NCBI RefSeq assembly: GCF_000265205.3
Contig: NT_187163.1
Span: 146,606 to 210,605, forward strand
Length of the DNA stretch: 64,000 nucleotides
Direction: 5' to 3'
Source of the DNA: Sinorhizobium fredii USDA 257
GTDB lineage: Bacteria; Pseudomonadota; Alphaproteobacteria; Rhizobiales; Rhizobiaceae
The notes below the pieces were generated by a model. The model saw only the letters and a program-made list of their open reading frames with translations. It was not told the origin of the DNA and did not search any database. The translations under genes were made by a program, and so were the position numbers. Below are positions 8,823-32,265 of this stretch, piece after piece. Each line of letters starts with the position of its first letter. Position 1 is the stretch's first letter.

Positions 8823-9134
8823 ATGCAGAGTGGGAATGTGACGACGCCCTTCGGGCGGCGGCCGATGACGCTTGCCTTGGTACGGCGACAGATTGCGACG
8901 ACCGAGATCAAGCCCGGCAAATCGGCTGACAAGTGGAAAGTTTTTCGGGATGTATCAGAAGCACGGGAAGTGCTCGGATTACAGGACCGCAGCCTTGCAG
9001 TGCTTGACGCGTTGCTTACCTTCTATCCTGACAACGAGCTTCGCCAGGATGCGCAGTTGATTGTCTTTCCATCGAATGCCCAGCTGACACTCCGTGCGCA
9101 TGGCATAGCCGGCGCCACGCTTCGAAGGCACCTA
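8823..9134 (+). pseudogene. repC: repC, 5' part (codons 1-104), interrupted by an IS element
   Basis: The first 104 codons of the RepC initiator, starting MQSGNVTTPFGRRPMTLALV with AGAAGGTGAAG just upstream. The conserved FPSNAQLTLRAHGIAGATLR segment ends at RRHL, where the reading frame runs into the IS630-family element and would stop after three or four foreign residues. The rest of the gene resumes in register at 10282. RepC binds the origin inside its own gene and is the essential initiator of repABC plasmids, so this copy is inactivated. Joined, the two parts would give a normal 404-residue protein. Confidence 0.93.
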
Positions 9135-10232: not shown

Positions 10233-10279
10233 TCGCCAAAGGGAATCCCATACGGACTCTTATGTTAGGCGGATACCAC
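9135..10279 (-). mobile_element. IS630-family insertion sequence inside repC
   Basis: A 1,145-bp element flanked by the dinucleotide TA at 9133-9134 and 10280-10281, the target duplication expected of IS630/Tc1-mariner elements. The ends are imperfect inverted repeats: reading inward from both sides they share GTGG at positions 1-4 and CTAACA at positions 12-17. It carries one transposase gene on the minus strand. Removing the element with one TA restores the repC frame exactly (His-Leu-Ala-Ile-Leu-Val), so the insertion is precise and probably recent. Confidence 0.92.
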
Positions 10280-10281
10280 TA

Positions 10282-11184
10282 GCCATTCTTGTCGAGGCAG
10301 GTCTGATCGTCCGGAAGGATAGTGCCAACGGCAAGCGCTACGCTAGAAAGGACAGGACAGGTGAGATCGAAAGTGCATTTGGCTTCGATATTTCACCACT
10401 CCTTTTGCGTGCCGAAGAGTTCGCACAGATGGCGCAGCAGGTCGCGGCCGATCGAGCGGCCTTGCGCCGAGCCAAGGAAAGTCTGACGATTTGCCGCCGT
10501 GACGTCCGAAAGCTCATTTCCGCTGCGATCGAGGAAGGCGCGTCGGGCGACTGGGAGACCATTGAGGAGATCTACATAGGCCTCGTGAGCAGGATTCCGC
10601 GCTCTCCGACGCTGGGCGACGTCACGTCAATCCTGGACGAGATGGAGCTCCTGCAGGGGGAGGTCGTCAACATCCTGGAAATGCAGAATAAAGACGAAAA
10701 TATCAGCACCAATGATGCTCATGGTGAGCGCCACATACAGAATTCAAAATCCGACTCCATCCATGAATTTGAACCTAGCTCTGGAAAAGAGCAGGGGGCG
10801 AAGCCGGCGGATGATGATCCGCCCAAGCGGGAGCCGATCCGGAATTTCCCACTTGGCATGATACTGCGGGCCTGCCCCGAAATTACGATGTACGGACCAG
10901 GCGGCACGATCAGCAACTGGCGCGACATGATGGCCGCCGCGGTCGTCGTCCGGTCGATGCTGGGGGTCAGCCCGTCGGCCTACCAGGAGGCCTGCGAGGT
11001 CATGGGGCCCGACAATGCCGCCGCAGCGATCGCCTGTATCCTCGAGCGGGAAGGGCACATCAAGTCGCCCGGCGGATATCTCCGAGATCTGACGCGTAAG
11101 GCGGCGCGGGGCGAGTTTTCGTTGGGGCCCGTGCTCATGGCGCTTCTAAGGGCGAACGGGGCGGGAATGCAGAGGGCCTCATGA
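10282..11184 (+). pseudogene. repC: repC, 3' part (codons 105-404) beyond the IS element
   Basis: This resumes RepC as AILVEAGLIVRKDSANGKRY and continues through LTICRRDVRKLISAAIEEGA to the conserved C-terminal region (FPLGMILRACPEITMYGPGG, YLRDLTRKAARGEFSLG). It has no start codon of its own and no further stops or frameshifts, which argues that the gene was intact until the IS landed. The repC coding region also contains the replication origin in this plasmid family, so the insertion may separate origin sequence as well. Confidence 0.92.
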
Positions 11185-15951: not shown

Positions 15952-18900
15952 TTACTCATTCGCCGGCGGCCAGCGCAGCTTACCACGGCCGACGCGTAAG
16001 GCTTCCACAAGCCTGGTGTTGCCCGGCAACCGACCCCAGAAGAGGCTGGGCTTGGGATCGACAGCCGACTTTTTGAACGGGGCAAGCCGTTGGTAGTCTG
16101 GCGTCGCCAGCCAGGTGCGCCCATCACCTTCGTCGGTGACGATCCGATAGAGGCCGGCAGGAGGAGCGGCCGCGATGTCGAGCAGGCGTTTATAGTTTTC
16201 AACTGACCACTTCTGGATGCCGCCGCTGAGTGCTTCCGTTCGGAAGCGCGCCCATAATGCGGCGGTATCAGGTGTCGGCCAGTCGCCAGCGTCGGTGTAG
16301 GCCGTGATCTCGTCGGATTCCAGCCAGACCCGCATCTCAGCGGGTGTGACGAAGACAGGTTGGGCATCTTTGATCGCCGCCATAGCCGCACGCCGTGATG
16401 GAAGGCCCGCACGGATCAGCATCGCCATCATGAATTGCGGGACGCCGGTTTCAACCGCCGCGGCGCCGCCGCCGGCAACCGTCTCTGGCGACCAGCCGAG
16501 GGACATGCGGCGGGTGCGCACGGCTTCCAGCGCCCAGACCAGGCGATAGGTGAAGGCCTCTTCGACTGCGCGCATGTTCTGAGGTCCGATTTTGGCAACG
16601 TCCTCGCCTGACACCCAACTATGCAGGATGGCCTTCCAATTCGCCGGTAGCGCATTGGCCTTGTCGGGGATGAAGGGCCGCATGAACAGCAGCCGTTCGC
16701 CGAGACCGCAGAGGGCGTCGACGAGTTCGTCGATGTCGCCTCTCAGCGCCGCCTCGTCTGCCCGATCGAGCAGTGTAGCCAGTTCATCAGCCATCGCGTC
16801 GATTGAGAGACCGGCTTCAAGCCCAACGCCCATGGCGAAATGTCCGCGTCGCGTCTGTGCCGTGGTGCTTTTCCAGATGAGGTCGGCGCGTGCCTCAAAC
16901 ACCTTCTTGTGCAAAGGGGCGATGTCCTCGTCCTCGCGGGCGATCTGGCGGGCCCAGAGGGACCCCTTAAGCGCCTCGTCCAAGAGCTTCGGCAGATCCG
17001 CGCGATCGGCGTCCAGCGCTTCGATCAGGCCGAACACGGTCGCGTCGAGGCGTTCGACGATCTGCGAGAGCGGCTCCTCGTCGATGGTTTCTTCCTCGTC
17101 ATCGCCGCCCTCTTCATCGTCGTCGCCATTGGCCTCATACTCCACGGCGGCGGCCAAGCGCTCTGCGACCGCAGCTTCTTCCTCGGGCGATCTCCAGGCT
17201 TCGCGGGCGTTGGCGAGATATTCCCAGGCGTCGTCACGATCCAGGACACCCTCGCGGGACAGGCGTTCGAGGATCTCGGCGACGATCTGGATGAGACCGC
17301 TTTTCAGTGTGCGGGCCTTGGCGGAGGCGACCAGCTTTCGCCATTCCCTTTTTCGCCAGTCGATTTTGTCGAACATGACATGAACGATCAGCCCCTCGAC
17401 GTCGACGAAGGCACGCCCGGCGCGGCCCGCGACATTCGCGAACTCCTCGCCTTTGATCTTCTCGGAGGCGCGATACAGTGCGGGCACCAACAGTACGGCG
17501 GCGTTGAGATTGAGGCCCTGCGAGAGCGTCGGCGAAGCGACGATGACCTTCAGTACCCCCTCGGACAGCAGGACTTCCAACTCGCGCAAGAATGGACTTG
17601 GCAGCCGGCCGTGGTGGATGGCGACGCCCTGCTTGAGGCAGGCGACGGCGGGATGGTCTTCGCCCAGCCATTCTTTGCCGACCTCCAAGGCCCGGGCGAT
17701 CGACGCTTCGTCCTCCAACAGGGAATGCAGATAGCCGCGCTTGCAGAGATCCATGGCCTGTTTGCCGTAGCTCTCGACCCAATTCGCCTGGGTGGAGAAG
17801 ATCAGGGTCCGCTTGCCCTGGCTTGCAAATTCCCATGCCGCGAACAGGGCGAGGTGCGAATTCTTGCGCGGATAGGGCTTTTTCTCCTTTCCTCGTGCTG
17901 GTTTCTCCACGACAAATTTGTCGAGAAAGGGACCATCATCGTCGAGGTCGAGCCGGAGCAGTGCGTCCTTGCCTCGCCATGTGAGCGCGCCGAACCGCTG
18001 TCGTGTGGGACGCCAGTCGGAACGCACCGGCTTACCCGGTTCGTCGGAGCGTATCCAGGCGGTGAGATCGTCCAATTCGTCACCGCTCGGCAGGATGGCG
18101 GAGAGACAAACAATCCGGCGGTCTGCTGCATCCGCCCGCCGAAGCAGGCGCTGCACCAGCGTCTCGTAGCGGATTTCACGCTCGCTCGGGCCGATCATGT
18201 GACCTTCGTCGAGGACGATCAGACCGACGTCGTCGATCAGCGACGGGTCGCTTCTCAGCGCGAAGTCGAGCTTCTCGGGCGTTGCAATGATGATCTCGCG
18301 GGTGCGCAGGGCGTCTTCATCACCGACCGAAAGTCCGCTGGCGCCGTAAAGGGAGGAGACGCTGAAGCCGAGGGGCGCGAAGGTCTTTCTGAAGGAGCGC
18401 TCGGTCTGGGCCGACAAAGCGCGCAATGGCGTGACGATCAGCACCCGGCGCGCCGACGACAGGGTCATAAGCGCGGCAATCTCGGCCACCCGGGTCTTGC
18501 CCGCGCTGGTCGGCAAGGCGACGACCAAATCGTCGGTGACATCCGTGGAACGTCGGGCCGCTTCGCGCTGCGATGGCCATAGCTCCACCTCGGATGTCTT
18601 GCGCGCGTAGAGCGACGAGATGAACAGCCGGCGCAGGTCCGGATATTTTTCCTCTGTACCCTCTGGCGGTTCGGTTGGCAGGTTCTGGTGCAGTGAATGC
18701 TGCCAGAGGTCGTCGATCAGGTGGCGACAGAGGTTCGAGATCCACCACAGCGGAACGTTCTCGGCGTTGTCCGCAAGGCTGACCGCGGTGCGGAGCAAGG
18801 TCCGGGCGCTTTCGATCGGCTCAGGCTCGCCCGTCTCGAGTGCGAAGTCAAAATGCGCCAAAGCTCGGCAGATCGTTGTGTTGAGGATCGTCGACAGCAC

Positions 18901-19455
18901 CTCGTCGACGTCCGGTTCTTCATCCCGCAGCGCCTCGGCGATCTGCTCATCGCCGTGAGCCTCGTCATCCAACCATCCGCGAACGAAGCCGCGCAGCTGA
19001 CCCAGATCGCGCAAGATCAGGTGTCGAATCGCCGTTTCACCCGGCGAGGTGTTGAGGTCGTCCGTGGTCTCGTTGAAGAGGGAGTAAGCGACCGCAGAGA
19101 ACCCGGCCAGGTGATAGGCCGCCGCGGCGATGGTGCGACGGAAACCGCGATCGGGTGACTCCGGATCGCCGTTGCGCACCAGGGCTTCGAAGGCATTGGC
19201 GGCGCGCTCGAAGGCCTTGCTGGTCAATTCCGACGAATCGGCCTGAGAACGCAGAGCCATCGCGCCCCGAAGCAGGGCGAAGCCGTGTTCAGCGAGATCG
19301 GTTTCGATTGTGGCGCCAAGGGGCGGTGCGTTCGGTGGGAGCACGCCCTTCTCGCGCATCAGCGACCACGCCGCACCGCGATAGAGCAGGCGCCCAAGGA
19401 CGCCGTCGACGGTCGCGGTCGCCAGGAACGCGGTCAGTTCGTCAATCGTCTCCAA
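15952..19455 (-). CDS. hamB: HamB, helicase of a Hachiman antiphage system
   Basis: A 1,167-residue SF2 helicase. A helical N-terminal region of about 300 residues precedes motif I (LPTSAGKT, residues 314-321), motif II (LDEGH, 415-419), SAILPSGDE as motif III, and GVAIHHGRLPSPF with NVAGRAGRAFVD as motif VI. A long acidic C-terminal part includes a low-complexity Glu/Asp run. Hachiman is a two-gene system: HamB is thought to scan DNA and HamA to cleave it when phage damage is sensed. The frame overlaps hamA by 14 bases, which couples their translation. Length and partner fit HamB well. Confidence 0.9.
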   Translation of the reverse strand: METIDELTAFLATATVDGVLGRLLYRGAAWSLMREKGVLPPNAPPLGATIETDLAEHGFALLRGAMALRSQADSSELTSKAFERAANAFEALVRNGDPESPDRGFRRTIAAAAYHLAGFSAVAYSLFNETTDDLNTSPGETAIRHLILRDLGQLRGFVRGWLDDEAHGDEQIAEALRDEEPDVDEVLSTILNTTICRALAHFDFALETGEPEPIESARTLLRTAVSLADNAENVPLWWISNLCRHLIDDLWQHSLHQNLPTEPPEGTEEKYPDLRRLFISSLYARKTSEVELWPSQREAARRSTDVTDDLVVALPTSAGKTRVAEIAALMTLSSARRVLIVTPLRALSAQTERSFRKTFAPLGFSVSSLYGASGLSVGDEDALRTREIIIATPEKLDFALRSDPSLIDDVGLIVLDEGHMIGPSEREIRYETLVQRLLRRADAADRRIVCLSAILPSGDELDDLTAWIRSDEPGKPVRSDWRPTRQRFGALTWRGKDALLRLDLDDDGPFLDKFVVEKPARGKEKKPYPRKNSHLALFAAWEFASQGKRTLIFSTQANWVESYGKQAMDLCKRGYLHSLLEDEASIARALEVGKEWLGEDHPAVACLKQGVAIHHGRLPSPFLRELEVLLSEGVLKVIVASPTLSQGLNLNAAVLLVPALYRASEKIKGEEFANVAGRAGRAFVDVEGLIVHVMFDKIDWRKREWRKLVASAKARTLKSGLIQIVAEILERLSREGVLDRDDAWEYLANAREAWRSPEEEAAVAERLAAAVEYEANGDDDEEGGDDEEETIDEEPLSQIVERLDATVFGLIEALDADRADLPKLLDEALKGSLWARQIAREDEDIAPLHKKVFEARADLIWKSTTAQTRRGHFAMGVGLEAGLSIDAMADELATLLDRADEAALRGDIDELVDALCGLGERLLFMRPFIPDKANALPANWKAILHSWVSGEDVAKIGPQNMRAVEEAFTYRLVWALEAVRTRRMSLGWSPETVAGGGAAAVETGVPQFMMAMLIRAGLPSRRAAMAAIKDAQPVFVTPAEMRVWLESDEITAYTDAGDWPTPDTAALWARFRTEALSGGIQKWSVENYKRLLDIAAAPPAGLYRIVTDEGDGRTWLATPDYQRLAPFKKSAVDPKPSLFWGRLPGNTRLVEALRVGRGKLRWPPANE

Positions 19456-20236
19456 GGTCTTCAGCCTCCTTATACATGGCCGCGATGAAGTCTTGATGGT
19501 CTTCGACGTGTATGTTCACGACGTAGTGGTCCCGGTTGGTTCCCGTGGCGTCGAAGTCCTCCTTCAACGACGCGTGGGGGCCGTTACCCGACACGGTGAA
19601 GAGCATGTGGTCGATGCGATCGGAGCGAAGGGACTTCAGGCCCACCTCGTCACGGAGGCTGCGGCCTAGCGCGTTGTCATCTGGATCGTTGCTCTCCAGC
19701 AGGCGGTTGGCGACAAACAGCAGGGAATCGGGCGTGCAGCGGCCGTTGTCGCGGTTAAGCACCTTGCGGGCGCTCGTGACCGTGGCCTTGCCGAGCACCT
19801 TGTTGCTCTTAGCTTCGCCTTTCAGGAGCCAGAGCTTCTCGCCGGCCCCATCGTATCCGGCGCCGATGAAGTCGTCGCCGCGCATGGCCATGTTGCGGCC
19901 GTCCTTGTAGCGGAGGCGGCGCACCGGGACCCGCAGGCCGATCTCTTCCTCGACCAGCTCGGTCGCGAGAATCTCACCGAGATCGCCGGAGCGACCTTTG
20001 GGCGTCTGGGGCATCGCCTCCCTGAGGATATTGGCGGCCACCTTGTACCCGAGCCGCTTCACGTCTTCGGCGATCCGTTCAAGTCGGTCGTAATGCGAAC
20101 GAATGGTCTCGGCGAGGTCATCACGAATCTCGTCGCGGCCGCCATCCTTCTCGACATAGATCCAGAAATGCCTGCGCTTGTCCTTTTCCTTGGCGGCGTG
20201 ACACCACCGCTCGTATAGCCCCACGTTTTCCCCCAA
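19442..20236 (-). CDS. hamA: HamA (DUF1837) nuclease effector of Hachiman
   Basis: About 260 residues with the DUF1837 features of HamA: GDLGEILATELVEEE (from residue 84), RGDDFIGAGYDG with Asp121/122, and LLKGEAKSNKV with Glu141-x-Lys143, the D-ExK centre of a PD-(D/E)xK nuclease. In known Hachiman systems HamA is held by HamB and released to degrade DNA. The longest frame begins at a TTG (20236); a GTG at 20224, preceded by GGGGGA, is a plausible start. It follows abiEii by only 3 bases and overlaps hamB, so it is translated from the same message as the AbiE pair. Confidence 0.9.
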   Translation of the reverse strand: MGENVGLYERWCHAAKEKDKRRHFWIYVEKDGGRDEIRDDLAETIRSHYDRLERIAEDVKRLGYKVAANILREAMPQTPKGRSGDLGEILATELVEEEIGLRVPVRRLRYKDGRNMAMRGDDFIGAGYDGAGEKLWLLKGEAKSNKVLGKATVTSARKVLNRDNGRCTPDSLLFVANRLLESNDPDDNALGRSLRDEVGLKSLRSDRIDHMLFTVSGNGPHASLKEDFDATGTNRDHYVVNIHVEDHQDFIAAMYKEAEDLGDD

Positions 20237-20239
20237 CTT

Positions 20240-21259
20240 TCATTTTACGGCCGCGCTGTTGGCACGCCCCGCGATGTCCCCGCACCGCTCTAGCAGCACC
20301 TCGAACGCCTCGGCGTCCTCAAGCAGCAACCCGTCCTCGACCATCCGGCTGTAGTCAGTGGCGAGCGCTGTGCGTGCTTCGCCAATTGGCACGAGTTGCA
20401 GTTTTCCGTTGACGGCGGCGTCATAGTCGATCGTCGCACCGTCGGCTGCCTTCTCCGCGAAGAACATGCTCTTGTGGCGGGCAACTGCATCGGCAAGGTC
20501 ACGGTCGGACATTGCGTTAGCGGCTATGCCTGCTTCATCCAGGCGTACGACGTCATGCCAATGGCGGGCGAAGCGCTCGCCACGAAGCCGCTCCTGCAAG
20601 CAGAAAACATGCATCGCCGTTGCCTTCTCCCAGAAGGTCCGCTCGGCATGCATCACTCGTGGGCGCGCCATCGGAAAATCGACCCCTTCGATCATTCCCG
20701 CCGCATCGCAGATGACATCACGTGGGCTTGCCGGCTCGCCCGTCGACCGAGCCCCGAACTCCAGCATCACGCTCGGCGCCACATAGCCCGACCCGGCCGA
20801 GGTCGCCTCATAGTCGATGAACAGCTTATCTCCTTCGACCCTGATCGTTGCGGGAAGCGCTTGCGCATCGATCGCACCGGCGACAAGCGGCCGGACCGTC
20901 CCGTCGACCCATTCGGGCAGTCGATGCCGGACAGCCTTCGACCAACGCTTCTCCTCGCTGCGGTTTCTTGGCAGGGCCTCGCCGTTCTCGCCCACCAGAT
21001 CGGGGGCGATGGCGCGAATGTCGTAGGTCAGATCCACGTCCTCGGAAAATCTCCGAATGACGCCATAGGCCTTGGACAGGGATGTGCCGCCCTTGAACAC
21101 GAGATGCTCGCCGAGATCGGACCCGAACAGTGTCGCGAGGGTCCAGACGACCCACACGTCCTTTTCCAGGAGATGGGCGGGGCGCCCGGATCGATCGGCG
21201 GCGACGGCCAACGCCTCGCGCCGATCGTCGACCGACAATCTCAGGAACGCCTCAGCCAT
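20240..21259 (-). CDS. abiEii: AbiEii nucleotidyltransferase toxin
   Basis: A 339-residue member of the AbiEii/AbiGii family. The nucleotidyltransferase core has the conserved KGGTSLSKAY (GGTS at residues 57-60) and RFSEDVDLT with the metal-binding Asp/Glu at 72-76, plus LLEKDVWVVW upstream and HARTFWEK-like HAERTFWEKATAMH later. AbiE toxins are GTP-binding nucleotidyltransferases that stop growth during phage infection and are neutralised by AbiEi as a type IV system. Its start overlaps abiEi by 8 bases. All motifs are present. Confidence 0.92.
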   Translation of the reverse strand: MAEAFLRLSVDDRREALAVAADRSGRPAHLLEKDVWVVWTLATLFGSDLGEHLVFKGGTSLSKAYGVIRRFSEDVDLTYDIRAIAPDLVGENGEALPRNRSEEKRWSKAVRHRLPEWVDGTVRPLVAGAIDAQALPATIRVEGDKLFIDYEATSAGSGYVAPSVMLEFGARSTGEPASPRDVICDAAGMIEGVDFPMARPRVMHAERTFWEKATAMHVFCLQERLRGERFARHWHDVVRLDEAGIAANAMSDRDLADAVARHKSMFFAEKAADGATIDYDAAVNGKLQLVPIGEARTALATDYSRMVEDGLLLEDAEAFEVLLERCGDIAGRANSAAVK

Positions 21260-21845
21260 GCGCGACCTTGCCGACCGTTCTGGCGAGCCAACTCGGGAGT
21301 TGGGGCGCGGCCGCGACGAGTTCGCCGAAAGTGGAAGATGGCAGCTTGCGCTTCAATGTCTTCAAGGCCGCTTCCGCCTTCTCAGGTCCCAGCCAGGCGA
21401 GCGCGCGCACAGCCTGGCCGGCAGGTCGATCGGCCAAAGCCAATTGCCAGCGCGGTGCGTGCCGCAACTCGACGACCTGCTGGCCCAAATTCATTGTCCG
21501 GCTGCGACCGGATGTCAGATAGACCGACCGAACCGGCACCTGAGTTGTGAGACCCAGCGCGTTGGCCGCCGACGCTCCATTTGACACGATGACCTCGCCA
21601 CGCTGGAGCGCGAGTGCTTCGACGGTTTTCTCAACCGAAGGCGCGCGGACGCCGAACCGGCTCGAAACCGGGCGCAAATATACGCCGCGCCCGGCACGCA
21701 TCAGTCGGCCACGCTCAGCCAGGCGCGATAGAGCCTGGTCCACCGCAGCTCGATTGCCGAGATGAAGCAGGCCTTTTGCTGCGATCGGTGCGCCCTCGGG
21801 CAAGCTTTCGGTATATGTCAGTATCTGTTCAGCGAGTCGTTTCAC
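21252..21845 (-). CDS. abiEi: AbiEi-like antitoxin/repressor (DUF6088)
   Basis: A 197-residue protein with an N-terminal winged helix (LLHLGNRAAVDQALSRLAER) and the VYLTSGRSRTMNLG segment of AbiEi/DUF6088 proteins, followed by the KLPSSTFGELVAAAP C-terminal part. AbiEi antitoxins bind inverted repeats in their own promoter and oppose the toxin indirectly. The start is a GTG at 21845 with AGGAGA upstream. It heads a five-gene operon (abiEi, abiEii, hamA, hamB, coiA-like), so its repression would control Hachiman too. Confidence 0.88.
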   Translation of the reverse strand: MKRLAEQILTYTESLPEGAPIAAKGLLHLGNRAAVDQALSRLAERGRLMRAGRGVYLRPVSSRFGVRAPSVEKTVEALALQRGEVIVSNGASAANALGLTTQVPVRSVYLTSGRSRTMNLGQQVVELRHAPRWQLALADRPAGQAVRALAWLGPEKAEAALKTLKRKLPSSTFGELVAAAPQLPSWLARTVGKVAHG

Positions 21846-21892: not shown

Positions 21893-22161
21893 TCTCTGCT
21901 GGAGCTGCCGTTAACGACGTCGCATCTTGTCGCTTAGATCCAACGTGTTGTAGCTTCTTTTAAGCTCGCACGGTGATGCTGCCGTCCTCTCATTGGCGAT
22001 GAGCATCGAATCACCTACATTGGACGTATGGATCATCCGGCCATGCCGTCCACAGTGGCGAAGCCTCAGGGCAGGAACGACTGAATCAACCCGCAAGAAC
22101 CTCTTTCCAAGGTGCACGGGCCGAGTGGACACGCCATAGATTGCACCGCTGGAGTGGTTCC

Positions 22162-23082
22162 ATGCGAATCCAGCTTCCCAATCTCGATCGGCCAAAACAG
22201 GCCGCCAAATATCTTGTTCGTGCTGCGACCAATCTGAAGCTCTCGTATGCGCATGAAGCGCTTGCCAGTGTGCTGGGCTACCGCGATTGGCACGATCTTT
22301 CCGGCAGCTGCCATCATGATCGACAAACATCACCCGGCGATTTGTGTCTCGAAGATGCGCTGCGTGTCATTCTCGAGCTAGCCGATGCTCTCCGTCTCCC
22401 TTACGCCGAGGTTCAGTACGCCGTGTCCAAGGCACGCCTTTTGCGTGAAACACCTTGGTCGCTTGACGAGCAGATGACGTTGCGCGCCTGGATCTGGCGG
22501 CGACGTCTTTTTGGTCCCCCGGGGCGGGGGAGGCCGGGGACAGTCGTGAAAGACAAGGCATATGGCGCCAACACGCCGGCTTATCTTCGCCGCGCTGGCC
22601 GTCCCACATATCTGTTCTTTGACACGGGGTTTGGTGAACGCGCAGACTTTGAGGTCGTGACTCCGCGCAGGACCCTCTCTGATTTCGTCCCGTCCCGCCT
22701 TTGGCTCCCCTACGGTGTCTGGAAACTGAAGGACGGCTCTGAAGTCATTTTCTCCCGGGACTATTTTCCGACGTGGGGAATTTGGGATGATCGTGTTCAG
22801 CGGCTCGCCCCTTGGCTTTGGATCAATGGCATCGTCGACCAAAGTCATTTTTGGAAGGCGGGAATCGGCGGCTGGACGAGCAGTTCGGCACGAGAGATGG
22901 CGATCGCCCACTTGGCTGTTCACCGCATCTTCGAACTTCCCAGGCTAACCGATGCAATGCCGCATCTTTTTGAAGCCGCTGTCGATTCCATGGAAGATGG
23001 TGTCAGGAGGCTTTATGCCGCGGGACGTCGCGACACCACGCTCCCATCCTATGCCGAATTGAACAAGCGCATTCTTAGATAA
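22162..23082 (+). CDS. Hypothetical protein upstream of the Mokosh operon
   Basis: A 306-residue protein I cannot assign to a characterised family. Residues about 8-45 (KYLVRAATNLKLSYAHEALA, then SVLGYRDWHDLS) resemble a short helical module found at the N-terminus of several plasmid proteins annotated only by association. The remainder has Trp- and Arg-rich patches (LRAWIWRRRLF, PTWGIWDDRVQRLAPWLW). I prefer the ATG at 22162 (GGAGTGG upstream) over the in-frame codon at 22141. It is co-directional with the next gene, with a 107-base gap, so a role in the adjacent defence operon is possible but unproven. Confidence 0.6.
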   Translation: MRIQLPNLDRPKQAAKYLVRAATNLKLSYAHEALASVLGYRDWHDLSGSCHHDRQTSPGDLCLEDALRVILELADALRLPYAEVQYAVSKARLLRETPWSLDEQMTLRAWIWRRRLFGPPGRGRPGTVVKDKAYGANTPAYLRRAGRPTYLFFDTGFGERADFEVVTPRRTLSDFVPSRLWLPYGVWKLKDGSEVIFSRDYFPTWGIWDDRVQRLAPWLWINGIVDQSHFWKAGIGGWTSSSAREMAIAHLAVHRIFELPRLTDAMPHLFEAAVDSMEDGVRRLYAAGRRDTTLPSYAELNKRILR

Positions 23083-23189
23083 GGCTACGCGGCATGATGT
23101 TTGGGAAGATACTAGTTTCAGATCGGATTCTGGACGCAACCACTAGACGAATCTGCTATGTCAAAAGCAAATCGGCAGGCTGGAACTGA

Positions 23190-26100
23190 ATGACGACAGT
23201 CAATACGGTCAAACAACATAAAAAACTCTCACTGGAATCCCGGTTCACATTTGCCGAGGACTCTCTCGCCCGTGTGAGCGGCGGTTGGGATTCCGACCTG
23301 CGGCCAGCAGTCGGGCTCGAGGATGGTGAGCGATACTTGCTGCGGCTCTTCCGGAAGACTGGCACTGCGCTGGACGACGACTTGAAGGCAATTGTTAATC
23401 GAGGGCTGCGGCGAATTCGACGTGTTCTATCTTCACGACGGGCTCGTGAAGTTCTGGTCGAAGTGCTCGAGGTCGTCGAGGATGCGCAGGAAATCGCGAT
23501 CGTTATGGCTGATCCCGGTAGCCCGATTTCCGGAACGTCGCATAGAAGGAGAGCAAGACAGGGCCGCTTTCTCACGAGCACGAGCCGAGCTATTTTCTGG
23601 CGCAATATCGTCCGGATCGCGGAGGCGCTTACTCTGTGCCATGATGCGGGCATCGTGCATGGCGGTGTGAGCACCCACACCATCTTCTCGCACTCAGACG
23701 ATAGCGATGACTGTCGTCTCGGGGGATTCGAAGCATGCGTCCACATTGCTGACGGCGACCTTGGAGCCTCCGGACATCTCCTTCGCTCTTCTGGAGCGAT
23801 TTCATTTCGACAGGATTGGATCGATCTTGCCGAAGTGGCCGCAGCTATACTCGGCCTGGATGGAGATACCCCTCCTTCGTTGCTATCGATCGAACGCCGA
23901 ATGCTGGATCGTTTGGCGAACCCGCCGCAGTTTCAGCTTTTTGACGGCAGCATCGTGCTTGGCGAATTAAGGGAAGTCATCGCCGAGCTCGACAGGGTCG
24001 GGTCGAGCTCTGACGGAGAACTCATCCTATATCCTTCACGGAACGTCCTTCAGAGCGATTTACCGGCTCTGTCGTCCGGGACGATACCGGCGCATGATGT
24101 CGCTGCCCTTATGCAGTTCGTCGCGGAAGATCTGCTTACAGCCGGGGTTCGTCTCATTCCGGCAGGTCAAGATAGCATACGCATCCTCACCGATCTGGCG
24201 ATCTACAACGTGAAGATCGTCAACGACGCAGTTGGAATGATCGAGGCGGCGCACAAAAGACGCCCGAACGACTGGATACAAGGCGCGGAGGATGTTGTTC
24301 ACCGTTTACATTTGGCCAGGAATCGCGCGAGTGCCGAAGAGCGCGTGCGGAACCTTGGTCCAGGTGCACGACGATGGCGAGACTTCTCAGAGCGTGTGCG
24401 AGCAATTGGGGTGACGAATGATGTTCCTATGTGGTTCGCTCTTCTCCTCCTTGAGGCTTTTACCCTACTAAGGGAGCAGTTTCGCCTGTATCCCGTCGAA
24501 GTCCTTGCGTCGCCCGATAGCGAGCAAAATGTGGTGATGCTCGCACCTCGCGATGACTCGATGCGGGACGATCAGCGTGAAATAATGGGATTGCGGCCTG
24601 CGGCGGAGGCAATGTGGCGCGAACTCAAATACGACGACGGAAAGGTGAATTGGACCGTATCGAAGTCTGCCAAACTGGCAACCGGCCGTGAACGATTGCC
24701 GGAACTCAGTTATGAGGGAAGCAACCTTGTTAACGGGAAACTTGCGTTCGCCTTTGCAACGAACCTGACTGTACCGCCAGGACAGTTGCTCTTTCTCCGG
24801 CCTCGCAAGGATAACGGAACCGAGCGAGCCATCAGGCGGCGGCTGCAGAACATTGTCGCGGCCAGGGCCAACGTGGAGCTCCTCAGAGCTTTGGACGACC
24901 CGGCGCAGGTGGCAATGGATGACATGCTGCGTGATATCGCTGTTCCGGGTTCGCCGCCGGCAGATGCAGATATGGAGCCATCGAAGATTGAGGCATGGCA
25001 GTCGATCGTCGCGGGGAGGTCGATTAACGTCGTCGTCGGCCCACCTGGGGTGGGAAAGACGTTTTTGATTTCACACCTCGTGAAAAGCATCCTCGACCAA
25101 ACGCCCGATGCTCGCATTCTGGTGTCTGCCCAGAACCATGAGACGCTCATTCATATGGAGGACGAGCTTCGGAAGTTCCTGCCCGAGCAGTCGACAATTG
25201 TCGTTCGCGTCGAACGGTCTCGGGTCAGCGAAGAAGAGAGCACCCTGCGGCAAAGCTCGGTCGCGTTGTTACGCTCCATCTCCAAGCCTGACACTGAACG
25301 CGCGGCCGTCATGGCAAACCAGCTCCATCAGATCACTCAGGCGCTAAATCCTGTCGACAGGTCGGAAAAGTCAACCGCCGAACGTGCTTTGCGCGACACC
25401 GACAATCTGACGCTTCGCTCGTCTGACGTCACCTTAGCCACGACCTCATCCCATGTCCTTGAGGAAATGATTGCCGATGGCGAACAGTTCGACTGGGTTT
25501 TCATCGAAGAAGCCGCGCGCGCAAATGGTGCTGAGCTAATTGGCGCCCTCCTTCTCGGTAACCGCCGGGTTATGATCGGCGACCATAATCAATTGTCGCC
25601 CTTCGATGTGGTCGAGCGCCAAAAGTTCTACGATGGCAAGCGCGCAAACGAATTGCTGAGGGATGCCAAAGAAAAGCTTTCTGCGATCCCCGATCTGCCA
25701 GGTGAAGTGGAAATCGCCCTCGACGCGCTCAAGGCGGATCAGTTCTTGCTCAGCGATGTTCTCGCCACCGCTTCTCGCCTCGAGGAGCCATTCAGATCAA
25801 TCGCCGAGCGAGAGGCCCTCAGAGCCGGAGACGCTAAACGTCCGAGCTCGATCGCGAACACCTTGCGCGAACAGAGCCGGATGCATCCAGCAATTGGCGA
25901 GCTTGTCTCAAACACCTTCTATAAAGGTGAGCTCGTTCCATCGGAGCGCGTGAAGCAGCGTAAGCCAGCAGTCGAAACAATTGCGGGCTTCCCTGCATCT
26001 CCCGTCGTGATCCTCGACATGCCCTCGTTGAGCGTCGTCAAACGCAAAGCGTTCGAGCACACTGTCAGGCGGTCTTACCGAAATGAGTCGGAAGTAAAGG

Positions 26101-26630
26101 CGATAGTATCCGCCATGAAGAGGTTGCGCCCAGTCGTGTCCGCGGACGGGCGTCGGCCGACGATGGCGGTATTGTCGCCCTATTCCGCTCAAGTGAGTCA
26201 TTTCGAGCGCTTGCTCAAGCCCGAGATCGATACGACCGAGAAGACCCTTTTTGGCTTCGCCAGCCCGCGCGGAGATGGAAAGTTTATCTATACAAGTGAC
26301 AGCTTCCAGGGTGGTGAGGCAGACGTGATCGTCGCCAGCCTCGTTCGAAACAACGTGCTCGTTGGCACGCGAGCCCTCGGTTTCATCAAGAACCCGCAGC
26401 GACTGAATGTGCTCCTCAGTCGAGCCAAGCATAAGCTGATACTTGCCACCAGCCGTAGGTTTATCAGCAACACCGTAAATGGGATCGATCCGGACGGCCT
26501 GAATGATGAGCTAGGCTTCCTGCGAAGGATGCTCGATGAAATCGCGCGGCTTGCAGAGACGGAATTTCCGGGGGTTGGTATGGGCGCTTCCATCATCACG
26601 GTCGATGAGAATGGGAAGCTCTCCCGATGA
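23190..26630 (+). CDS. mkoA: MkoA-like: pseudokinase fused to an SF1 (UPF1-type) helicase
   Basis: A 1,146-residue protein. Residues about 15-240 have a protein-kinase fold, but the HRD Asp is Gly (VHGGVSTHTIF, 156-166) and the DFG Asp is Gly (RLGGF, 176-180), so it should be catalytically dead. The C-terminal half is a COG1112-type SF1 helicase: GPPGVGKT at 617-624, FIEEAAR at 771-777, GDHNQL at 797-802, SFQGGEADV at 1038-1046 and RLNVLLSRAK at 1071-1080. A kinase-like domain joined to this helicase, followed by a PLD-nuclease gene, is the layout of type I Mokosh antiphage systems. The next gene overlaps by 4 bases. Confidence 0.83.
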   Translation: MTTVNTVKQHKKLSLESRFTFAEDSLARVSGGWDSDLRPAVGLEDGERYLLRLFRKTGTALDDDLKAIVNRGLRRIRRVLSSRRAREVLVEVLEVVEDAQEIAIVMADPGSPISGTSHRRRARQGRFLTSTSRAIFWRNIVRIAEALTLCHDAGIVHGGVSTHTIFSHSDDSDDCRLGGFEACVHIADGDLGASGHLLRSSGAISFRQDWIDLAEVAAAILGLDGDTPPSLLSIERRMLDRLANPPQFQLFDGSIVLGELREVIAELDRVGSSSDGELILYPSRNVLQSDLPALSSGTIPAHDVAALMQFVAEDLLTAGVRLIPAGQDSIRILTDLAIYNVKIVNDAVGMIEAAHKRRPNDWIQGAEDVVHRLHLARNRASAEERVRNLGPGARRWRDFSERVRAIGVTNDVPMWFALLLLEAFTLLREQFRLYPVEVLASPDSEQNVVMLAPRDDSMRDDQREIMGLRPAAEAMWRELKYDDGKVNWTVSKSAKLATGRERLPELSYEGSNLVNGKLAFAFATNLTVPPGQLLFLRPRKDNGTERAIRRRLQNIVAARANVELLRALDDPAQVAMDDMLRDIAVPGSPPADADMEPSKIEAWQSIVAGRSINVVVGPPGVGKTFLISHLVKSILDQTPDARILVSAQNHETLIHMEDELRKFLPEQSTIVVRVERSRVSEEESTLRQSSVALLRSISKPDTERAAVMANQLHQITQALNPVDRSEKSTAERALRDTDNLTLRSSDVTLATTSSHVLEEMIADGEQFDWVFIEEAARANGAELIGALLLGNRRVMIGDHNQLSPFDVVERQKFYDGKRANELLRDAKEKLSAIPDLPGEVEIALDALKADQFLLSDVLATASRLEEPFRSIAEREALRAGDAKRPSSIANTLREQSRMHPAIGELVSNTFYKGELVPSERVKQRKPAVETIAGFPASPVVILDMPSLSVVKRKAFEHTVRRSYRNESEVKAIVSAMKRLRPVVSADGRRPTMAVLSPYSAQVSHFERLLKPEIDTTEKTLFGFASPRGDGKFIYTSDSFQGGEADVIVASLVRNNVLVGTRALGFIKNPQRLNVLLSRAKHKLILATSRRFISNTVNGIDPDGLNDELGFLRRMLDEIARLAETEFPGVGMGASIITVDENGKLSR

Positions 26631-28366
26631 ACAACATCTACATTCCGGCATGGCATTATCGGGCGCCAGGCATCGTTCAGCGCACGTGGGGCTGGAGCCC
26701 TATCGAGGAAATGGTGCTGCTGTCGCTTGATCGCAACCCAGGAACGATCGATGCCGTCGCGGCACACTTGGGAATCCTGCGACAGATTGTGAGCTCGACC
26801 GTAGCCCGCCTTATGCAGTTCGGCCTCGTTGAAGTCCGGCTTTCGCCACAGCCAGTGCTCGCCACAAGCAGCGTCGGGCATAGCTTCATTCGCGCGGGAC
26901 GTGCGCTTCCTGAACGAACCACGGACCGCGAAATCGGTATCAGTGTCGTATATGAAAAGGTCGGGCAGTCTGTCTTCAGGACGCGAGATGTGGACACGAT
27001 CCCGGTTTCGAAACTCCCGGCCAGCGGCGCGATTGTCGCTTTTCCATCGGGCGAAGCGCCGGAGACGGACTATTCGATGATGCAGCGCGTCAGTCAGTTC
27101 ACGGCCGGTACACTTCGTCCGGGCGAATGGCTTCGGGGTGTCGAGGCCAACAGTTCGTTCCTGGAACGAAAATTCCTGGTTCTCAATCTTGACGATGTGA
27201 AAGACGGGATACTGCCACTAGGGGCGAGCGACCAGCTCGTGGAAGCCCTGAAGGCGACAATAAAAACCGGCATCTTGCCGACGACCGCTGCTCCGCCAGT
27301 CAGCCAGCCTGTGGTGATCGACACGTCGTTTGCCACCGAACAGCTTATCGTTGGGTCCGAACAGCACTTGCAGCGCTTCGAGCAAATCGTTGGCGCTGCA
27401 AAGTCGCACATCTTTGTCCTTTCAACGTTTGTCGCTTCGCAGTCCGATGAGAAAGGCAAAGAGAGGCGCGAGAGGATATGGCAGGCCCTCGAGGATGCAT
27501 GCAGACGAGGCGTCAAATGTCACCTGTTCTTTGGAACGTCGCTTGATCGCGCCAAGCATGCATCAGCCATGCAGGAACTCTACACTCGGCTATCTGCGGT
27601 TCGGCAGACGAGAGGCTATCTGCTCGTCCAGAGAGATCCTGTGGGCAGCCATGCAAAGTTTCTCCTAGCAGACGATGGCGATGGTGGTGCAATTGCGGTG
27701 ATGGGGTCCTGCAATTGGCTTTCGTCCCCGTTTTCGGCTGTCGAGGTTTCCGTAGAACTCAGGGAAACCAACGCTGTTGCGACCGGAATGGATCTACTCC
27801 GCGAGATCATTGCCAAACTCTCCGGCGCCAGCCGATCCGTGGAAACGCTTTTGTTTATGGCGTCGGAACTGCGGCGTCAGCGTGCCCGTCTTTCATGGTC
27901 TTCAGAAACCCCGCCTCCTACCGCCAGACTAACCATTCTTCGGGCCGACGACCACGAGCGCCTTCTCCGCGTTGCGGCGCACGATGCGCAGGAGCGTTTC
28001 GTTTGCTGCACGAATAAGGTCGGAGCCAATATGGTCCCCGCCCTGTTCGACCCCGCAGAGGTCGCAGGCAAGCGATTGAGTGACGTGCGTGTCTACTACT
28101 CGCGACGGTCGGGGCCGATCAAACGGGGGCATGTCGCACAACACCGCGAACGTCTGAATGGCATCGTCGAGTTAACTGGCGTACCGGAGCCGCAATTGCA
28201 CGCCAAGTTCCTGGCGTGGGACAACGACCATATCGTCGTCAGTAGCTTGAACTGGGGCTCGCAATCGGGATTGGAGGAGAACCCATTGGACGAAATCGGC
28301 CTTTACCTGCAGGGCACAAAGCTTGCGACATCGTTGCTAGATAAATTCGAGGCAGCGAGTAGATGA
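26627..28366 (+). CDS. mkoB: MkoB-like phospholipase-D-fold nuclease with winged-helix N-terminus
   Basis: A 579-residue protein with two HxKxxxxD motifs, SHAKFLLAD (His342, Lys344, Asp349) and LHAKFLAWD (His525, Lys527, Asp532). Both active-site halves of a PLD-family nuclease are therefore present, each followed by a conserved Asn (GSCNW, SLNWGS). Residues about 20-75 form a winged helix (GTIDAVAAHLGILRQIVSST). In Mokosh the PLD protein is the presumed effector nuclease that acts with the helicase. It overlaps the helicase gene by 4 bases and the third gene by 4 bases. Confidence 0.83.
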   Translation: MNNIYIPAWHYRAPGIVQRTWGWSPIEEMVLLSLDRNPGTIDAVAAHLGILRQIVSSTVARLMQFGLVEVRLSPQPVLATSSVGHSFIRAGRALPERTTDREIGISVVYEKVGQSVFRTRDVDTIPVSKLPASGAIVAFPSGEAPETDYSMMQRVSQFTAGTLRPGEWLRGVEANSSFLERKFLVLNLDDVKDGILPLGASDQLVEALKATIKTGILPTTAAPPVSQPVVIDTSFATEQLIVGSEQHLQRFEQIVGAAKSHIFVLSTFVASQSDEKGKERRERIWQALEDACRRGVKCHLFFGTSLDRAKHASAMQELYTRLSAVRQTRGYLLVQRDPVGSHAKFLLADDGDGGAIAVMGSCNWLSSPFSAVEVSVELRETNAVATGMDLLREIIAKLSGASRSVETLLFMASELRRQRARLSWSSETPPPTARLTILRADDHERLLRVAAHDAQERFVCCTNKVGANMVPALFDPAEVAGKRLSDVRVYYSRRSGPIKRGHVAQHRERLNGIVELTGVPEPQLHAKFLAWDNDHIVVSSLNWGSQSGLEENPLDEIGLYLQGTKLATSLLDKFEAASR

Positions 28367-29508
28367 CCGGGGTAGTGACTGAAAAGTCCGCGCCCAACGC
28401 CGCAAACGCCGGCCTCGTCATGAAATTTTTGGAGCTTGATGGGCAAAACGGTCAGCCGCCTCGTTCCGTGAGTATCGGTGGCCTCGAGCTGGAACCACTA
28501 AACTACGACCAGCTGGCAGGTGCACAACTGCATAGACCTCTATCCGTCCCGCTCAATTGGCGTCACGCCAGAATTCTTGAGACGAACATCGAGGGCATTG
28601 AGATCGATAGTCTGGCACGCGGAAACGCGACGCTCGAGAGCACTCATAATTCGATGGCCGTCAGCCTGCAGCGTGGCGGTTGGCTTCCGTCTGGTCTCGC
28701 GATCGCCGATGGTGGCGTTACGATCCTGCCCGATAGAAATGTCATCAGCCAGATAAAGGGACGTTTCGAGGGCGGCTCTGTTGTCGGCGCGGGTCAGGAC
28801 TTTCTGGACTTGCTTGCTGAGCAGGAGGTGCGACTTAACCCCCTTCTGTTCGCGATCGAAGGCAATGACCGGAGAATTCCAGATCATCAGATCGTAGAAG
28901 CGCAGCTGACGGAAGTGACGGCCTTTCTCCGCAAAGCGCTTCCGAAGGCAGAGCTTGTTGTCGGCAACGACAGTCTGAGGGGAGCTCTTGGCCTGATCGA
29001 AGACACCCGTGCTGGGCTTGAGCGAAAGAGCAAGTTCCTCCTTCATCTCTCGCCTGTCCTCACTGCTCCAACGAGCCGCAGGCTTTTCGACAAACGATGG
29101 ACCGATGTGCTTGATGCGGCCGATCGCTACGGTGTGGCTCGCGGTTCTTTGGTTGTTCTGGCGGCGTTGAGCTCAGTGGCGGTTCCAAACTCTGGCAGCC
29201 CCGCAAAGAAGATGTTGAAGTTTCGGGCGACATACTCTGACGAGGACGCCTACAACGCGCTCGCAGATATACGTTCGCTTGAAATATTAATTCACCTCCT
29301 CGCGCTGTTTCCCGGAGAGCGTCCTGCCATTTTTACAGCCGACAGAGCATTGGCGCTTTTCTGGACCGGAATCCGGGCGCATAACTTCCGACGCGAAATG
29401 CGCTCGGTATCGTGCGATCTAGCGCCGGTAGAGCAGTTGTTTCCGGGCGACACGATGAACCTCTGGAAGAGCGATTGCAGACCTCGCGCAGCCGCGCAGG
29501 CAACGTAA
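28363..29508 (+). CDS. PIN-like domain protein, third gene of the Mokosh operon
   Basis: A 381-residue protein that I do not recognise as part of canonical Mokosh. The sequence suggests a PIN-like RNase fold: a first acidic site in VTILPDRNVIS (Asp124), a possible Asp299 in NALADIRSLEILIHLLALF, and Asp327 in IFTADRALALFW. The last two resemble the paired acidic strands at the end of PIN domains. The 120 residues before Asp124 have no visible motif. The ATGA overlap with mkoB means coupled translation. It could be a second effector, a regulator, or a toxin-like add-on. The domain call is mine from motif spacing. Confidence 0.6.
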   Translation: MTGVVTEKSAPNAANAGLVMKFLELDGQNGQPPRSVSIGGLELEPLNYDQLAGAQLHRPLSVPLNWRHARILETNIEGIEIDSLARGNATLESTHNSMAVSLQRGGWLPSGLAIADGGVTILPDRNVISQIKGRFEGGSVVGAGQDFLDLLAEQEVRLNPLLFAIEGNDRRIPDHQIVEAQLTEVTAFLRKALPKAELVVGNDSLRGALGLIEDTRAGLERKSKFLLHLSPVLTAPTSRRLFDKRWTDVLDAADRYGVARGSLVVLAALSSVAVPNSGSPAKKMLKFRATYSDEDAYNALADIRSLEILIHLLALFPGERPAIFTADRALALFWTGIRAHNFRREMRSVSCDLAPVEQLFPGDTMNLWKSDCRPRAAAQAT

Positions 29509-29514
29509 ACCCGT

Positions 29515-32265
29515 TCATTCGGCGCTTCGTCGATCAATTAGCTGCGTGTGGTCACAGCCGGGATATTGGTTGCACCCGAGAAAGCGGCCGTTGTCGCGAC
29601 CTTTCCGTTCTACCAGTTGGCCCACGCCGCACGCCGGACACGGATTTAGCGTGTCACCATCAATCGTCTCGAAACGCAAGTTTTCGCCGGCGATTTCTGA
29701 GAGCTCCCGAATATATCTGGATGGCTCACGGCTGTTCGTCAGCAGGAACACACCGCGGCTCGCGCGGGTCAATGCGACATAGAAAAGGCGGCGCTCCTCG
29801 GCAAACTCAAACGTCTCCGGTCGCGGCATGACTAGATTGAGCAGCTCATCGTCCTCTATCCGGCTTGGCACCCCATAATCGCCTTCGCTGACATCGAGCA
29901 GAATCGTATAGTCGGCCTCAAGTCCCTTGGCTCGATGGAACGACAGTCCCGAAACTTCGATATGCTCGAATTTTGGCATCGCCCCCCTGAACGGATCCAG
30001 CTGGTTGTAGCGCCACAGCACCATGACCTTGAGCTTCTGGTGCTCGTCGCTCCGCCACTGTACGGAAATCCCGCCAAGGAAGGTATCGAGGCGCTTCAGC
30101 AATCGGAGGCATGAATCGGCAAAATCTGACTTGCCGCGATCACCGTCGATTGGAATGACCCGGATCGATCGTGGGATCGCCGGCCGTGTCGACCGCACCG
30201 ATTTCTTAAGCTGGATCGGATTGCGCTGGACGAAGCTGGCCGCTGTTTCGGCGATGAGCTGATTGCAGCGATAGGTTTGCTCCAGACGACCTTGCCAACT
30301 TGCCCCAAAATTCGCCTCGAACTGCGTGAATATCGTAATGTCCGAACCGGCAAAGCGATAGATCGACTGCCAGTCGTCACCCACCGCAAAGATCTTGGTG
30401 AACGGCTTCTGGTGTTTCAGCGCCTTGATCAGCTTCGCGCGCGGCTCGGAAATATCTTGGAACTCTTCGACGAGGATCAGGGAGTATGGGCTCTCATATT
30501 GTCCGGTTTCCACTAGCCGCGTGGCATTGGCGATCATCGAGTCGAAATCGATGCGGTTGGCCTCTACCAGCTTCTGGGAATAGGTTTCGGTGATCTTCCA
30601 GACGACCTGCGCAAATTCCCTGGCGCGGGTGCGATCGTGAAGCGATTTGGCGCGCTCAAGCAGCATGTCCAGGGTCAGGTGGCCGGCGCGAATGTGTTTG
30701 ATGCAGATCGCAATCAGCTTGTGATAGTGCTTGATGACAACCGGCTCGAGGGCTTTCACGATCGCCGCATAGCTTTTACGTTCGAACCGAATGCCCCGTT
30801 TCGCAAGCTCTGCTTCGAGTTCCGCAATCAGCGATCCATCACTCGCTTGCGCCGACGTGGTCCGGAATACATCCATCCCGGCCTTGCGGTATGCGGCCAG
30901 CTTGTTTTCGGCATGGGTGACGTAGTCCGCGAAGGGGGACGTGCCGTCAGCGTTGATGGCCAGATGCTCATGGATCGTTTTGCTGGCGGGGTAATAGAAG
31001 TCCGGATGGACGTACCGGATTTCCCCGTTTCCCTCGTTGATCGGGATCTGACGTTCGTACTCGAACTCGACGGAGTGCAGCCAGAGCCAGTTGGTGACTG
31101 TCTGCTCCTGGAGCGACTTCACATAGATGCCGGCCATCGTGCCGACGGTCGCATTTCCTTTCCGCCGGCGCACCGACAGGTAGCGCTCGTAGTCTGCCTC
31201 GGAATCGAACACCTCTGCCGGGATATCCGCCTTAGGATGAAGGACGAGGAGGTTGACCCAAAGCCCGGCGAATTCCGCGTCCGAACGCAGCAGCTCGTCT
31301 ATGATCTCTTCGATCACTCTGGCCTCGCCGGCGGGATGTTCGACCCAGTCGGCAAGCTGAGGGGGACGGCCTTCGACCTCTTCGATAATTCCGCGACCGA
31401 GGGCGTGAAACGTGATCACTTTACATCCCGGATTTCCTGGATCGACCGCGAGCTGTCTGTATATCCGCTCTTTCAGTTCATCGGCGGCGCTCTTGTTGAA
31501 AGCGAGCACAAGGATTTCCTCAGGCCGATAGAGCTGCTTGTCGAGGACGTAGGCGACCTTGCCGACCATGGTGGCGGATTTGCCTGAGCCGGCAGAGGCG
31601 ACGAGGAGATTGTTGTCTTCCAATCGAATGCACGCCTCGCGTTGCTGATCGGACAATGACCGGCCATCCAGATTGTCGTAGAACGACCGGTATCTCGACA
31701 GCTCAGCCGAGACAAACGCATCATTATATCTGTGGCGAACATCCGGATCGGTGAGGAAGGTGAGCGATCGGGGCAGCGCCGCTTTAAGGGTGGCCGGCAT
31801 CAGTTCCGGGTCGAACAGAGGGTGCGAAAGCGCGGCCGCGGCTTCACCTGTTACATTCGCAATCGCACGGGCCAGGTCGGCATGGGCCAGATATTGCCGG
31901 TTACCCTCGGTGATAGACTGTAGTTTCGTATCCACTTCGCTCAGGCGCTCGGTGTCGGAGCCGATCAAGTCGAAGAGGTGGTTATTGATAAAGCTGTAAA
32001 GGTCTGCCGCAATCCGGGTTGCTGCCTCTTCTCCGAGGCAGGGCAGGCTGTAGATTCGATTGCGAGACCGGACTTCGACCGAATGCCACAGCAAAGCCTT
32101 GCCGACGGAAATGGCTATGACGTCCAGACAAGGAAGATTGTCGGCGCCGTTCACGTTGATCTGCAGGGCCGCCGGCAACGACGAGCTCAGCGTCACTTTC
32201 CATTTTCCTTGGGGAAGGAGTCGGGCAAAAAATCCAGGCCGGTGTGTTCGAACACGATCAGACAT
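29515..32265 (-). CDS. UvrD/Rep-family helicase, helicase-IV-like, with zinc-finger tail
   Basis: A 916-residue SF1A helicase. Motif I is ASAGSGKS (residues 223-230) after the Q motif LSDQQREA. Motif II reads LVEEFQD, with Glu in place of the first Asp of DEFQD. AVGDDWQSIYRFAGSD, QTYRCNQLIAE, SFHRAKGLEADY and YVALTRAS follow. The last 40 residues are a topoisomerase-type C4 zinc finger (CPACGVGQL ... GCNQYPGC). This layout fits DNA helicase IV (HelD-like). It starts 25 bases after an HTH-containing gene on the same strand and ends 6 bases from the end of the convergent Mokosh operon. Helicases of this type occur in several multi-gene defence loci, so a defence role is possible. Confidence 0.82.
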   Translation of the reverse strand: MSDRVRTHRPGFFARLLPQGKWKVTLSSSLPAALQINVNGADNLPCLDVIAISVGKALLWHSVEVRSRNRIYSLPCLGEEAATRIAADLYSFINNHLFDLIGSDTERLSEVDTKLQSITEGNRQYLAHADLARAIANVTGEAAAALSHPLFDPELMPATLKAALPRSLTFLTDPDVRHRYNDAFVSAELSRYRSFYDNLDGRSLSDQQREACIRLEDNNLLVASAGSGKSATMVGKVAYVLDKQLYRPEEILVLAFNKSAADELKERIYRQLAVDPGNPGCKVITFHALGRGIIEEVEGRPPQLADWVEHPAGEARVIEEIIDELLRSDAEFAGLWVNLLVLHPKADIPAEVFDSEADYERYLSVRRRKGNATVGTMAGIYVKSLQEQTVTNWLWLHSVEFEYERQIPINEGNGEIRYVHPDFYYPASKTIHEHLAINADGTSPFADYVTHAENKLAAYRKAGMDVFRTTSAQASDGSLIAELEAELAKRGIRFERKSYAAIVKALEPVVIKHYHKLIAICIKHIRAGHLTLDMLLERAKSLHDRTRAREFAQVVWKITETYSQKLVEANRIDFDSMIANATRLVETGQYESPYSLILVEEFQDISEPRAKLIKALKHQKPFTKIFAVGDDWQSIYRFAGSDITIFTQFEANFGASWQGRLEQTYRCNQLIAETAASFVQRNPIQLKKSVRSTRPAIPRSIRVIPIDGDRGKSDFADSCLRLLKRLDTFLGGISVQWRSDEHQKLKVMVLWRYNQLDPFRGAMPKFEHIEVSGLSFHRAKGLEADYTILLDVSEGDYGVPSRIEDDELLNLVMPRPETFEFAEERRLFYVALTRASRGVFLLTNSREPSRYIRELSEIAGENLRFETIDGDTLNPCPACGVGQLVERKGRDNGRFLGCNQYPGCDHTQLIDRRSAE

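Follow-up and report, generated by a model that had tools for sequence, protein, structure and literature searches.

Type I Mokosh is a known two-gene anti-phage system that consists of MkoA and MkoB. Its original description is reportedly that of Millman et al. in 2022. Passages of PMC11291487, citing others, state that Mokosh degrades viral transcripts. No description of a three-gene Mokosh was found in the limited open-access library that was searched, which includes passages of PMC11291487 and PMC10952713, and no report of a 'PIN-like domain' together with Mokosh was found in it. Here we analyse an operon of three plus-strand genes (mkoA, mkoB and a third gene) in a 64,000-nucleotide stretch of DNA from Sinorhizobium fredii USDA 257, which is called the window throughout. 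We hold, at slightly better than even confidence, that the operon contains an ordinary type I Mokosh pair, behind whose mkoB gene one rhizobial-plasmid lineage has captured a standalone gene for a PIN-like nuclease, a second and independent effector.

MkoA matches the PADLOC model PDLC03920 over residues 14–1123 (4.9e-224) and MkoB matches PDLC03922 over residues 3–575 (3.8e-91), in agreement with an earlier note on this DNA, made from the sequence alone, which had assigned the two genes to type I Mokosh. MkoA also matches Pfam AAA_12 (4.6e-36) and has an intact Walker A motif (GPPGVGKT) at 617 and an EE-type motif II at 771. The best solved relatives of its residues 132–196 are CASK kinase domains (E about 1e-4), while Pfam Pkinase reaches only E 0.12. 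Reading of the sequence by eye places HGG at the expected HRD and GGF at the expected DFG; because both catalytic Asp motifs appear to be lost, the label 'pseudokinase' proposed for this region is a fair one. MkoB matches Pfam PLDc_2 (7.8e-14), with a sub-threshold match to MarR_2, and contains two intact HxKx4D (HKD) motifs at 342 and 525, as had also been predicted. A Mokosh-family helicase and a separate two-HKD PLD nuclease are thus encoded by adjacent genes on the same strand, and the pair most likely functions in the manner of a known type I Mokosh.

A natural variant of MkoA is present in Sinorhizobium glycinis, whose copy (L002, 5610–5612) lacks 1,947 bases corresponding to window positions 22025–23971. 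The deletion takes out the upstream gene at 22141–23082 and the first 261 codons of mkoA, which include the pseudokinase region. The remaining helicase, mkoB and the third gene are 100% identical to those of the window.

Distribution of the third gene and its linkage to mkoAB

The earlier note had proposed that the third gene encodes a coupled second nuclease extending the known system, a proposal that it made depend on homologues occurring together with mkoAB. Our analysis does not support this proposal, as most homologues lie away from mkoAB. We examined 13 of the 15 plasmid records with a match to the third gene (all except H8 and H13) and scored the presence of mkoA and mkoB at E<=1e-4 in flanks of up to 9 kb. 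All eight plasmid loci with more distant copies lack both genes; their hosts are Sphingopyxis (two loci), Aurantiacibacter, Agrobacterium vitis, Xanthomonas, Pseudomonas aeruginosa, Allochromatium and Providencia. Neither gene is present on any of the seven IMG/VR viral contigs that carry the third gene (six distinct proteins). Tape measure, tail fibre, endolysin or integrase genes (Pfam or PHROGs) surround it on four of these contigs (L023, L025, L026 and L032), and in L025 it abuts the integrase. A tblastn search of 50,697 phage records gave no match to the window protein or the Providencia type, so the IMG/VR contigs are the sole source for the prophage setting. Searches of viral sequences with the proteins of the Xanthomonas and L022 types returned no relative.

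The linkage to mkoAB is confined to one clade. The whole operon is present in Aminobacter pSR5 (identity of 91% for mkoA, 94% for mkoB and 85% for the third gene), and a decayed operon is present in Roseibium, where mkoB residues 50–121 are directly followed by residues 179–381 of the third protein. In a tree whose deeper branching is mostly unresolved and in which some branches are long, all copies linked to mkoAB group together (100/100 support); the link has a single origin. Among 21 mkoB loci examined, two have no mkoB by tblastn, two carry the third gene (Sinorhizobium USDA 205 and Aminobacter) and 17 are scored without it, eight of these having less than 1.5 kb of right flank. The scan of genome contigs used one query sequence and reaches close relatives only. 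In 200 related genomes, mkoB is found in nine and the third gene in three, all of them Sinorhizobium with mkoB. In wider samples, the family profile found the third gene in 2 of 385 and in 4 of 398 genomes; the match in G368, among the latter four, is weak, covers only 61 residues and contains a stop. MkoB was hit in 2 of 385 and 5 of 398, and both are found together only in the window's own genome.

It is therefore more likely that the third gene is an independent module hitched to the operon rather than a core part of Mokosh, because most of its relatives are carried by themselves on plasmids and prophages, and they resemble nucleases. The standalone relatives and the 17 of 17 other mkoB loci that lack the gene lead us to reject it as a general Mokosh subunit, and on account of the latter absence we do not file it as a Mokosh component.

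Sequence, predicted fold and proposed role of the third protein

The third gene was correctly described in the earlier note as a reading frame of 381 residues that overlaps mkoB by 4 bases; its coordinates are exact and the junction is ATGA. The same note had seen PIN-domain acidic residues at Asp124, Asp299 and Asp327. Alignment of 16 family members retains the PIN-like set but alters one of its positions: residue 299 is Ala, and the conserved acid is D302. D124, E166, N298, D302, T325 and D327 are invariant in all 16 rows, whereas D295 is conserved in most of them. The four conserved acids (D124, E166, D302 and D327) stand in the order found in PIN domains. Structure models (pTM 0.82 and 0.83) predict a beta-rich N-terminal region (residues about 1–110), a PIN-like alpha/beta core and a long helical insertion. 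In the models, D124 follows the strand 120–123, E166 lies in the helix 161–166, D302 lies in the helix 293–315 and D327 follows the strand 321–325. Profile alignment (hhalign) with 12 PIN proteins of the same genome places their motif-1 Asp on D124; the match is weak (E 0.065, probability 0.85%), and its score was reached by none of 150 column shuffles.

Libraries of known families do not recognize the protein. No model of Pfam, PADLOC, NCBIfam or PHROGs matches it, and the 16 family members give only scattered weak hits in Pfam, PHROGs and NCBIfam, in one or two members each, with no match to Pfam PIN in any of them. PADLOC matches neither the window protein (E<=0.01) nor seven relatives (E<=1). 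Foldseek searches gave no significant match against PDB for the full model (0/61 at E<=0.001) or the core model (0/66), and none against BFVD (0/76), and a PDB sequence profile search with the family alignment returned a single irrelevant match (E 0.075). The structure prediction and fold search that the earlier note had suggested gave a divided answer, PIN structures being among the weak matches and not the best ones. VIA-align 2 ranked cyclodipeptide synthases and tRNA synthetases over PIN structures, all weakly; because no match stands above background, we count this ranking neither for nor against PIN. Another candidate is a Rossmann-like enzyme that is not a nuclease and whose ligand is RNA or a nucleotide, such as one of the cyclodipeptide-synthase or class I tRNA-synthetase type. 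We regard such an enzyme as quite improbable. Pairing of the gene as a toxin with an antitoxin was also considered and is rejected, as no neighbour recurs across the divergent standalone loci.

The third protein is most likely a metal-dependent PIN-like nuclease. Its metal would be bound by D124, E166, D302 and D327, and a target or partner would be recognized through the helical insertion and the N-terminal beta region. RNA is its probable substrate, by analogy with PIN toxins. Through the ATGA junction its translation would be coupled to that of mkoB, and therefore the protein would be made whenever Mokosh is made. It would then serve against phage as a second effector, independent of MkoAB. 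A direct coupling to MkoAB is possible but is not favoured, because the family mostly occurs without mkoAB and Mokosh occurs without the third gene.

The plasmid site beside the UvrD gene

The contig is 210,605 bases long and is part of a 7.03 Mb genome. Pieces of repC lie on it at a distance of 14–20 kb, upstream of the operon, and mark it as a probable repABC plasmid. The repC-like sequence (8859–10527) is in two pieces, 8859–9134 and 10252–10527, with a DDE transposase reading frame (9132–10232, minus strand) between them. Two ATGA overlaps link the three genes of the operon in a chain, and a convergent UvrD-like helicase gene follows them (Table 1).

Table 1. Features of the operon and of the surrounding island (window coordinates)
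Feature	Position	Strand	Description
mkoA	23190..26630	+	Pseudokinase-like N-terminal region and SF1 (AAA_11/AAA_12) helicase, 1146 aa
mkoB	26627..28366	+	Winged-helix-like N-terminus and PLD nuclease with two HKD motifs, 579 aa
Third gene	28363..29508	+	381 aa, beta-rich N-terminal region and PIN-like core predicted
mkoA/mkoB ATGA overlap	26627..26630	+	4 bases
mkoB/third-gene ATGA overlap	28363..28366	+	4 bases
UvrD-like helicase gene, convergent	29515..32265	-	Pfam UvrD-helicase 4.7e-42
AbiEii and DUF6088/AbiEi pair, same island	20240-21259 and 21252-21845	-	PADLOC AbiEii 8e-100, AbiEi 8.6e-67
Hachiman pair, same island	HamB 15952-19455 and HamA 19442-20236	-	PADLOC HamB E=0, HamA 3.2e-112

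Near copies of the UvrD gene are common to many rhizobial plasmids. We viewed ten places that adjoin it (the window, L004, L013, L016–L018 and L066–L069). Mokosh is the neighbour in three of them (the window, Aminobacter and a distant pair in Rhizobium N324) and AbiE-type pairs lie within two genes in five, while the remaining two contain a decayed operon and a set of RepB-like and recombinase genes, respectively. Judged from its copies and their differing neighbours, the UvrD gene is an anchor of the plasmid backbone, and the site beside it on rhizobial plasmids is a hotspot for the exchange of defence modules. Such exchange accounts for how a cargo gene could have come to lie after mkoB.

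Three plasmid records contain only end fragments of the third gene, adjoining UvrD. Its last 29–39 codons are conserved there, antisense within the start of a DUF6088 gene (L017, 7001–7112; L018, 4766–4877; L016, 7158–7241), and may represent a recombination scar or a shared junction.

The G+C content is 0.56–0.59 over 22–33 kb of the window and higher in most of the flanks. The gene upstream of mkoA has only a weak match to the N-terminal part of Glyoxalase_8 (Pfam, E 0.014), and its Aminobacter counterpart is in pieces. In Sinorhizobium fredii USDA 205, whose stretch differs from the window overall by one mismatch and one 10-base gap, HamA is split across two frames (L003, around 1093–1874).

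Alternative readings and comparison with known systems

Selection on the operon bears on two further explanations. Simple Nei-Gojobori counts for one pair, the window and Aminobacter, give ratios of nonsynonymous to synonymous change (dN/dS) of 0.08 for mkoA, 0.08 for mkoB, 0.26 for the third gene and 0.11 for UvrD; the third gene is therefore under purifying selection, but a looser one than mkoA and mkoB. That it is conserved at all, overlaps mkoB by 4 bases with co-translation, remains linked in three Sinorhizobium genomes and in Aminobacter, and lies beside mkoB even in the Roseibium remnant could indicate a true three-gene Mokosh. In such a system, phage nucleic acid would be sensed or unwound by MkoA and cut by MkoB, and the PIN-like protein would join them as a second nuclease or as a regulator. 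We consider this unlikely, since most relatives of the third gene occur apart from mkoAB, all 17 other mkoB loci and all but three of the nine mkoB-bearing genomes among the 200 are without it, and its constraint is looser than that of its partners. The opposite explanation, that the hotspot produced the linkage incidentally and the third gene is a drifting passenger with no current role in the operon, would fit the frequent swapping of modules beside UvrD, a dN/dS three times that of mkoAB, the decay in Roseibium and the approximately 110 bases of gene end left in L017 and L018. This seems very improbable to us, as the reading frame is intact with all conserved residues in both the window and Aminobacter, and a dN/dS of 0.26 is still well below 1.

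Capture of an independent nuclease gene by the operon remains our preferred reading. A bolder proposal, which we put forward tentatively and think rather doubtful, is that the third gene belongs to an undescribed standalone family of PIN-like nucleases, a one-gene defence of prophages and plasmids that can dock behind mkoAB, so that two co-translated nucleases of unrelated folds act jointly on phage nucleic acid. The more interesting object here is the undescribed standalone family. The third protein is matched by no model of the four family libraries searched, yet its occurrences extend to plasmids from several lineages of proteobacteria and to contigs that resemble prophages. If the gene is a one-gene defence, the catalogue of anti-phage systems would gain a new entry, and the Sinorhizobium/Aminobacter operon would represent a rare docking in which a standalone effector was joined, in frame with translation, to a known two-gene system. 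Whether docked effectors are independent of the host system or work with it is thereby made a testable question.

A distant family of hypothetical proteins of plasmids and chromosomes (represented by L022, L064 and L065) has a homologous core (hhalign probability 98%, E 2.9e-13, 216 columns) but lacks the beta-rich N-terminal region. A SIR2 gene is located near two of the four L022-type loci viewed (L064, 1896–3647; L065, 6077–7447). With PIN-domain nucleases (VapC toxins and relatives, PF01850) the third protein shares the order of acidic motifs and their secondary-structure positions, and it aligns weakly with such proteins at motif 1 in the profile comparison. It differs from them in being about three times longer, without a Pfam hit, in its beta-rich N-terminal region and the long helical insertion that separates the E166 motif from that of D302, and in having no antitoxin-like partner that recurs beside it. 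The other two genes resemble type I Mokosh, both proteins matching over nearly their full length in the same gene order, with a 4-base mkoA/mkoB overlap that is also present in related plasmid loci. In contrast to the 17 other mkoB loci, the window locus carries a third, overlapping gene after mkoB.
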